Shown here piece by piece: positions 26,877 through 28,074 of a stretch of DNA of 64,000 nt; the first letter of the stretch is position 1; every line of letters starts with the position of its first letter. The notes under the pieces are model-generated. The model saw nothing but the letters and a program-made list of their open reading frames with translations, was not told the DNA's origin and ran no database searches. The translations under genes were made by a program, and so were the position numbers. The DNA is from Nitrospirota bacterium (GTDB taxonomy: Bacteria; Nitrospirota; UBA9217): positions 37,308 through 101,307 of the forward strand of contig DATIZR010000041.1 in the NCBI GenBank assembly GCA_035516965.1, in the 5' to 3' direction.

Positions 26877-27290
26877 CTATTTGAACGGGAGGTTCTGGTC
26901 CGGTGAAGGGACCAGAATATCCACAAGGTTCGCACGCACGGTCAGAACCACCCTTGGCCGTTTCGGGTCGTTGCTCATGACTTCAACGGTTTCCTCCAGG
27001 GGATTGCTCTTCGAAAGAGTTTCGACGCGCGTGATGATCGATCCCTTTTCCCCCGGCTTCAGACGGCTCGGACCAGCCGTCACTGCGCCGCAGCCTCAGG
27101 TCGTGTTCACTTCCCTGATGATCAAATCCTCGGTTCCGGCATTTCTGAACTCGAAGGCGTGTTCCAGCGTGGGACCCTTCATGACAGTCCCGAAGTCGTG
27201 GCGTTCCGCCGTGAATTCGATGGCGGGCTGGGCTGCGGCAAGGACTGGCATGAGAAACAGCAACAGGGTCAAAAGGGGTTTCATGAGCAT
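26877..27290 (-). CDS. DUF1573 exported protein with in-frame UGA (candidate selenoprotein)
   Basis: 138 codons in one uninterrupted frame except for a single TGA at 27098-27096. A signal peptide (residues 3-21, to AAA-QP) precedes a DUF1573 beta-sandwich: FGTVMKGPTLEHAFEFRNAGTEDLIIREVNTT, then UGA, GCGAVTAG, LKPGEKGSI. In the family the segment after TT is normally CGC, so the UGA replaces the first Cys. Both halves stay in the same frame and remain well conserved, which argues against an ordinary pseudogene. A hairpin with a 7-bp stem lies 14 nt past the UGA (27062-27081). I infer selenocysteine. A recent nonsense mutation or a sequence error would look the same without the hairpin. ATG 27284 is an alternative start; no ribosome site is obvious. 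Confidence 0.6.
27062..27081 (-). promoter_or_regulatory. SECIS-like hairpin after the in-frame UGA
   Basis: On the minus strand GACGGCT and AGCCGTC pair perfectly around the hexaloop GGTCCG. The stem begins 14 nt after the UGA and the loop GU is 23-24 nt after it. The E. coli fdhF element likewise has a GU-bearing loop (AGGUCU) about 20 nt from its UGA. The bulged U below the loop seen in fdhF is absent here. Confidence 0.5.
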
Positions 27291-27371
27291 AGTATAGCAT
27301 ACCGGCTGAGGTCGAAGCCTCGCGGCGCTCCCCCTTGTGCTACAATGGAGAAGAGAAGAAAGGAGGGTGCC

Positions 27372-27803
27372 ATGAAGAGAGGTTCGCTATTTGTTGCCCT
27401 GGTGTTCTTCCTGGGCGGCGCCGGTATGCATGCAGTGGCAGCGGAGAAAACGCCGGACCAGATGGTGAAGGATGCGAAGGCGACGATCAGAGAGGTGTCC
27501 ATCGACGACGTCAGGAAGATGGTCGATGCGAAGGACAGCGTGATCATCCTGGACGTGCGCGACAAAAATGAGCTCGAGGAAGGGAAGATCCCCGGCGCCA
27601 TGAATATCTCAAGGGGCATGCTCGAGTTCAAGGTCGGGTCAACGATCCCGGACAAGACGGCGCGCATCGTCGTCTACTGCGGCCTCGATCTGCGCGGGCC
27701 GCTGGCCACGAAAACGTTGAATGACCTGGGCTATGTGAACGCGGTGAACATGGCGGGAGGGCTCAAGGCCTGGAAGGCGGCCGGGTATCCGCTTGCGAAA
27801 TAG
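27372..27803 (+). CDS. Exported single-domain rhodanese
   Basis: 143 residues. The start ATG 27372 follows AGGAGGG at 5 nt. A signal peptide (residues 1-24, ending VAA-EK) sends it to the periplasm. The rhodanese domain has VIILDVRDKNELEEGKIPGAMNI and the active loop VVYCGLDLRG, a canonical Cys-x4-Arg sulfur-carrying site, then GGLKAWKAAGYPL. It probably transfers sulfane sulfur or senses sulfide or thiols. It is divergent from the DUF1573 gene by 81 bases. The upstream TGCTACAAT is a possible extended -10. Confidence 0.85.
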   Translation: MKRGSLFVALVFFLGGAGMHAVAAEKTPDQMVKDAKATIREVSIDDVRKMVDAKDSVIILDVRDKNELEEGKIPGAMNISRGMLEFKVGSTIPDKTARIVVYCGLDLRGPLATKTLNDLGYVNAVNMAGGLKAWKAAGYPLAK

Positions 27804-27864: not shown

Positions 27865-28074
27865 CTATTTTCGCTGCTTTCTCTCGTGCAGCAGCTCAAC
27901 AATCCGCGGTATGCATTCTTTTCCCTTACAGGAGCCGGTGCCGGCTCCTGTGGCTTTTTGGAGCGCAGCCACGGTCGAAGCGCCGGCCTGGAGGTGCTTG
28001 AGGAACACCTTCTTCCTGATGGCCTTGCACCGGCAGATCATCTTCAAATTGTCAAGGATCTCTTCTTCGTTCAT
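27865..28074 (-). CDS. BFD-type [2Fe-2S] protein
   Basis: 69 residues. The four Cys pattern CRC (CxC) then SCKGKEC (CxxxxC), with the helical AIRKKVFLKHLQAGASTVAALQKATGAGTGSC, fits the Fer2_BFD fold of bacterioferritin-associated ferredoxin and of NifU/NirB central domains. It could deliver electrons for iron release or regulate an oxidoreductase. No bacterioferritin gene is adjacent. Convergent with the rhodanese gene. Confidence 0.8.
   Translation of the reverse strand: MNEEEILDNLKMICRCKAIRKKVFLKHLQAGASTVAALQKATGAGTGSCKGKECIPRIVELLHERKQRK

Follow-up and report, generated by a model that had tools for sequence, protein, structure and literature searches.

We analyzed a 64,000-nucleotide stretch of DNA from a Nitrospirota bacterium (assembly GCA_035516965.1, contig DATIZR010000041.1, positions 37,308 to 101,307), hereafter the window, in which a minus-strand gene for a DUF1573 protein carries a single in-frame UGA. 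Judging from sequence, this gene very probably encodes a likely exported protein with a predicted immunoglobulin (Ig)-like fold that belongs to a known selenoprotein family, its UGA being read as selenocysteine (Sec) by way of a predicted selenocysteine insertion sequence (SECIS) and forming part of a likely Sec-Gly-Cys redox centre. The frame at 26877-27290 comprises 138 codons, including one TGA (codon 65) and a terminal TAG (26877-26879), and no further in-frame stop was found in it besides the TGA at 27096-27098 and this TAG. Its translation, MLMKPLLTLLLFLMPVLAAAQPAIEF...NTT*GCGAV...DQNLPFK, in which * is the TGA, gives the motif N-T-T-U-G-C-G, so that the TGA follows NTT, precedes GCG and stands where the family has the first Cys of C-G-C, exactly as the first-pass annotation had described from the letters alone. 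The sole Cys of the protein, Cys67, lies two residues past the TGA.

Read across the TGA, the protein matched Pfam PF07610 (DUF1573) at 2.1e-20 and 73 bits, exceeding the gathering cut-off of 26.1. The upstream half matched the same family by itself at 3.6e-10 and the downstream half at 0.0018, the latter with 18.7 bits and thus under the curated cut-off. The earlier claim that the frame is unbroken on either side of a single TGA, with DUF1573 character in both halves, was therefore borne out, the downstream half matching below the cut-off. The hydrophobic start of the protein suggests that it is likely exported. A large protein search returned two matches and was of little help, and a structure search returned only the Ig-like/PapD-like fold, which is uninformative on function. 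The closest solved structure, both by sequence (1.4e-6) and by fold (VIA-align Z 14.8), was 2qsv from Porphyromonas gingivalis W83, a 220-residue chain of unassigned function.

If the UGA is a Sec codon, relatives would be expected to carry UGA or a Cys codon at the same column. A search of 61 genomes yielded 36 with a match, and among the 30 loci fetched the column held TGA in 13 (the window gene counted) and TGC or TGT in 17, which supplied the UGA/Cys pairs that the first-pass annotation had proposed looking for. A degenerate pattern built on the window gene matched once in the window and never in 100 shuffles. Applied to a genome collection, it gave at least 121 matches in at least 120 stretches; since the matches listed are not all of them, more UGA DUF1573 loci exist. 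A profile built solely from the 17 Cys forms recognised UGA DUF1573 frames in 118 of the 121 listed matches (E < 1e-10), and the other three (L074, L103, L109) were discarded as chance. By NCBI phylum label the 118 comprise 57 from Nitrospirota, 19 from Myxococcota (a label that must include records titled merely 'Deltaproteobacteria bacterium'), 8 each from Zixiibacteriota and Thermodesulfobacteriota, 6 from CSSED10-310, 5 from Calditrichota, 3 from Acidobacteriota, and 1 each from Pseudomonadota, Caldisericota, Gemmatimonadota and Bacteroidota, with 8 unlabelled. The gene thus shows the UGA at a Cys column, with conservation on both sides, that is looked for in a bacterial selenoprotein.

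Conservation beyond the UGA was also apparent from substitution rates. In each of 24 close pairs, drawn from 31 loci and sharing 75% to <100% identity, the nonsynonymous rate (dN) was below the synonymous rate (dS) downstream of both the UGA and the SECIS stem, which, together with the lack of more stops, agrees with the first-pass description of an intact downstream half. An earlier calculation over 263 pairs, with downstream dN at or above dS in 35, was discarded because it was saturated and distant pairs had been compared ungapped. In a tree of 135 domains, built on 133 columns (a small number given its many rows) and with many forks left unresolved, the window gene was nearest to L101 (54% identity), L157 and L167, within a 45-row set in which 42 rows are Nitrospirota and 3 unlabelled (support 96). 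At least three changes between Sec and Cys are required on this tree, in which the Cys forms were sampled from one phylum only. The same genome holds a second UGA DUF1573 gene (C91:5522-5908), which falls in a separate set of 12 rows (support 98) and is seemingly the type in most genomes of its family; same-family genomes seem to carry this type of Sec-DUF1573, not the window type, and the window gene may or may not have come from outside the lineage.

A SECIS-like hairpin was found 14 nt downstream of the UGA (Table 1), at a place where the first-pass annotation had suggested looking. Published limits for bacterial SECIS elements are a loop of 3-9 nt, an upper stem of 4-16 bp, a G within the first two loop positions, a gap of 16-37 nt between UGA and loop, and a minimum free energy of -7.5 kcal/mol or lower (PMC13188914). 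The window hairpin satisfies them all, with a 6-nt loop that begins GG, 7 bp, a 21-nt gap and a minimum free energy of -11.9 kcal/mol alone (-13.1 kcal/mol for a 27-nt stretch), and only 4 of 1000 synonymous recodings were equally stable. To assess covariation, the window sequence was combined with 57 Nitrospirota sequences picked by phylum label alone (n = 58); an earlier grouping was set aside, its rows having been partly selected by pairing. Across this set, 88.4% of cells were paired, as against 15.5-49.3% in slid versions. Two-sided changes numbered 76 vs 30.9 in shuffled sets (none of 500 as high) and affected 6 of the 7 stem pairs vs 3.8 (10 of 500). Among the 17 Cys forms, no near hairpin within the published limits was found.

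Table 1. Features of the DUF1573 locus and its neighbours (window coordinates).
Feature	Position	Strand	Remarks
DUF1573 selenoprotein gene	26877..27290	minus	137 residues including Sec65; from translation and Pfam DUF1573, 73 bits across the UGA
In-frame UGA, predicted Sec codon 65	27096..27098	minus	from sequence and same-column TGA in relatives
U-G-C motif (Sec65-Gly66-Cys67)	27090..27098	minus	from sequence
Predicted bacterial SECIS hairpin	27062..27081	minus	7 bp stem, loop GGUCCG, UGA-loop gap 21 nt
Hydrophobic N-terminus, likely signal peptide	27231..27290	minus	residues ~1-20; read from sequence, model helix 4-17
Rhodanese-like neighbour, divergent, likely signal peptide	27372..27803	plus	context; functional link not implied
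Small BFD-like [2Fe-2S] candidate protein	27865..28074	minus	69 aa; from the open reading frame list, family recognised by eye

The source genome, a draft of 3.80 Mb in 120 contigs (97.7% complete), contains the full Sec machinery expected of a selenoprotein producer. The tRNA for Sec (tRNA-Sec, selC) scored 62.4 bits against a cut-off of 47 and has the anticodon UCA; selA gave two full-length matches that are 77% identical to one another; selB gave one full-length match and one covering positions 1-347 close to a contig end; and selD, also present, likewise has an internal TGA (C86:4133-5059, locus L049), so that SelD itself likely contains Sec. We also observed that the selA and selB matches are duplicated (C42:9278-10666 and C71:1919-3295), one set being on a 4.9 kb contig; the second set is either genuine or due to a stray contig. 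The window contig itself is native rather than a contaminant, since its Ffh is 93% identical to that of a same-genus genome. With all four sel genes in one genome, UGA/Cys pairs at one column and a covarying hairpin, the earlier placement of Sec at the first Cys is well supported.

The association with Sec machinery extends across the phylum. In a survey of 148 genomes, 54 matched DUF1573, among them 31 with an internal-TGA match; the TGA lay at the Sec column in all 28 that were read by position, the UGA status of the other three (G083, G098, G115) being taken from the survey table. selA was found in 28 of the 31 UGA genomes (27 above cut-off, with a fragment in G008), compared with 7 of the 23 genomes that had only other DUF1573 matches (Fisher p 7e-6, a value that assumes independence between genomes, an assumption that relatives violate). 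The three UGA genomes lacking selA (G004, G005, G141), as well as G008, carry a tRNA-Sec above cut-off, and none of five chosen Cys-form genomes lacking selA does (G016 being just below, at 46.5 bits). UGA forms of DUF1573 therefore track the Sec machinery.

The first-pass annotation had proposed a new selenoprotein family, a claim that the literature does not support. OS_HP2, with pfam07610 and the motif UxC, has a row in a table of selenoprotein families (PLoS Genet 2008, PMC2398784), and a DUF1573 domain-containing protein with the motif UGC is listed in the selenoprotein tables of two reviews (Biomolecules 2022, PMC9312934; AEM 2026, PMC13188914), whose entries refer it to Zhang and Gladyshev 2007. 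The window protein combines pfam07610 with UGC/UxC, has Sec first in the same C-x-C motif and has Cys homologues; the gene is thus a well-supported additional member of a family already listed in these tables. It differs in its place on a branch composed mainly of Nitrospirota, where the closest row of the tree is 54% identical to it, and in scoring 72.2 bits on the NCBIfam model NF041425, OS_HP2 (seleno)protein, which has a cut-off of 100. Among seven other UGA members scored on this model (three as domain pieces), one passed, that of Desulfonema magnum with 120.1 bits. Since its score is under the cut-off, the window protein was filed as a Sec-containing DUF1573 protein and not as a member of NF041425.

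How such a protein would act is suggested by its motif and by its relatives. The UGA would be decoded as Sec by the ribosome at codon 65 with the help of the predicted hairpin, and the resulting Sec-Gly-Cys, which includes the sole Cys, is placed by the predicted structure at a turn joining two strands of the Ig-like sandwich. There, the motif would function as a thiol/selenol redox centre in the periplasm, probably making and breaking a Sec-S bond. In 27 of the 118 listed Sec forms (L078, L092, L127, L164 and 23 more), the domain is followed in frame by a region that bears two CxxCH haem motifs, and the same continuation occurs in 13 of the 17 Cys-form loci, all from one phylum. These DUF1573-cytochrome c fusions, Cys and Sec alike, share the N-terminal domain and motif of the window protein, whereas the window gene is stand-alone: its frame ends at residue 137, has one Cys overall and lacks both CxxCH motifs. 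Since relatives put the domain before the two-CxxCH region, a haem carrier could exchange electrons with the Sec centre. We tentatively extend this to a broader picture, about which we have more doubt than confidence, in which Sec-DUF1573 is a widespread periplasmic electron relay whose acceptor is a c-type cytochrome. The Sec domain would be joined to the cytochrome in many Nitrospirota and free-standing in the window, Sec and Cys versions would replace one another along the tree, and SECIS sites would be both near and distal (40 nt; see below).

TlpA-like proteins have a thioredoxin fold, in contrast to the Ig-like fold of DUF1573, and we liken the two by motif, with no claim of family relation. 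A UGC-containing TlpA-like selenoprotein (cd02966) in the table of PMC13188914 shares with the window protein the Sec-Gly-Cys and the character of a likely exported redox protein.

Several observations weigh against the interpretation of the window gene as a hairpin-guided selenoprotein with a redox motif. The covariation set showed no excess of further pair types (12 vs 11.6 shuffled), and 11.6% of its cells were unpaired. A near hairpin meeting all published limits occurs in only 54 of the 118 listed Sec forms (44/77 plus 10/41), and a looser rule, which finds one in 105 of 119 Sec forms, finds one also in 6 of 17 Cys forms. Because the search pattern requires U-G-C and a few residues, the presence of U-G-C in 118 of 118 is not independent evidence, and 27 of the 94 surveyed genomes with no match to the window query carry selA nonetheless. 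The periplasmic redox centre, though likely, is deduced from the motif and the fusions only. Moreover, one match (L195, 1501-1854) has U-G-A in place of U-G-C, so that Sec is retained and the second Cys is gone, and P0001, a DUF1573 domain with the cytochrome region following, has S-G-T instead of C-G-C, so that the motif is gone and the fusion kept. An intra-motif Sec-S bond is therefore not universal.

Other explanations of the UGA can be weighed against the same data. Since TGA differs from TGC by one base and the downstream half alone is under the Pfam cut-off, the gene might be a pseudogene or have suffered a recent nonsense mutation, so that its product would end at residue 64 and the remainder would be decaying. 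That is very hard to reconcile with the DUF1573 frames of the 118 listed loci from many lineages, in which the TGA recurs at the same column, the purifying selection downstream in every close pair, the covarying hairpin and a frame free of additional stops, and we consider it highly improbable. A sequencing or assembly error at 27096-27098 is less credible still: although the genome is a draft in many contigs, the nearest relatives (L101, L018/L167, L157) share the TGA position, and an error would not produce a hairpin whose stability so few recodings equal. A UGA read as another amino acid, by an altered code or plain read-through, would agree with the comparative evidence, all of which has the codon read in frame, and UGA does stand for Trp or Gly in the codes of some other bacteria. 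Nevertheless, the 17 fetched non-TGA homologues have Cys at this column, never Trp or Gly, and the genome's tRNA-Sec, selA, selB and selD, the tracking of UGA forms with this machinery and the SECIS-type hairpin all point to Sec, leaving very little room for this reading.

A different question is what an inserted Sec would do. C-x-C pairs can bind metals, and U-G-C might likewise bind a soft metal (Cu, Hg, Zn) or be structural rather than redox-active, as the loss of one or both motif residues in some members (L195, P0001) could suggest. We regard this as possible, albeit unlikely, because the CxxCH regions that follow the domain in Sec and Cys forms favour a redox role, and because 103 of the 118 listed Sec-form domains have no other Cys, which leaves few extra metal ligands.

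A second hairpin was observed in other lineages. In 41 of the 118 listed UGA members (including L072, L093-L098, L115, L142 and L143; 1 of the 41 is labelled Nitrospirota), a 6-bp hairpin, UUCCCC-loop-GGGGAA, forms 5 or 6 pairs with a UGA-loop gap of 40 nt, which exceeds the published spacing. The hairpin coincides with near-frozen codons 12-17 past the UGA (ATT CCC CCG GGY GGG GAA), and 10 of the 41 members additionally hold a nearer hairpin within the published limits; the window gene lacks the distal one. Since choosing these rows by pairing forces part of the codon choice, the count was repeated on 42 rows encoding P-P-G-G-E at codons 13-17. Six pairs formed in 36 of them, five in 1 and four in 5. 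Codons CCC, CCG, GGG and GAA were each used in 37 of the 42, and the preceding Ile was ATT in 28 of 33. Over the rest of these genes, by comparison, Gly is encoded by GGG at a frequency of 18%, Glu by GAA at 44% and Ile by ATT at 28%. The hairpin is a candidate SECIS at a distal site. No printed account of it or of the cytochrome fusions was found in the literature searched, which largely excludes subscription journals.

Together, these results indicate that a selenoprotein family on which little has been written is common, with at least 118 UGA members as against what appears to be 2 in its row of the 2008 table (PMC2398784), and that the region with two CxxCH haem motifs is a likely partner for DUF1573 selenoproteins. 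What makes the finding of moderate interest is how widely the family occurs, its link to cytochromes and a candidate second position for the SECIS. Since Sec and Cys forms are matched within one phylum, the old question of what advantage Sec has over Cys becomes testable. Automatic annotation may truncate such genes at residue 64, or miss those below the NF041425 cut-off.

The first-pass annotation had also drawn on a sulfur/redox neighbourhood made up of the rhodanese and BFD-like genes. The rhodanese gene does exist, but among the listed UGA loci, which are cut at various distances, the divergent rhodanese/DUF1573 pair recurs in just 2 of 118 others (L101, L157), and the setting is thus weak evidence; a partnership between rhodanese and DUF1573 is only a lead. 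The pairs lie ~80-125 bp apart by match ends (window 27290-27372, L101 2615-2740, L157 3689-3785), and L101 and L157 are the two rows nearest to the window gene by tree path.
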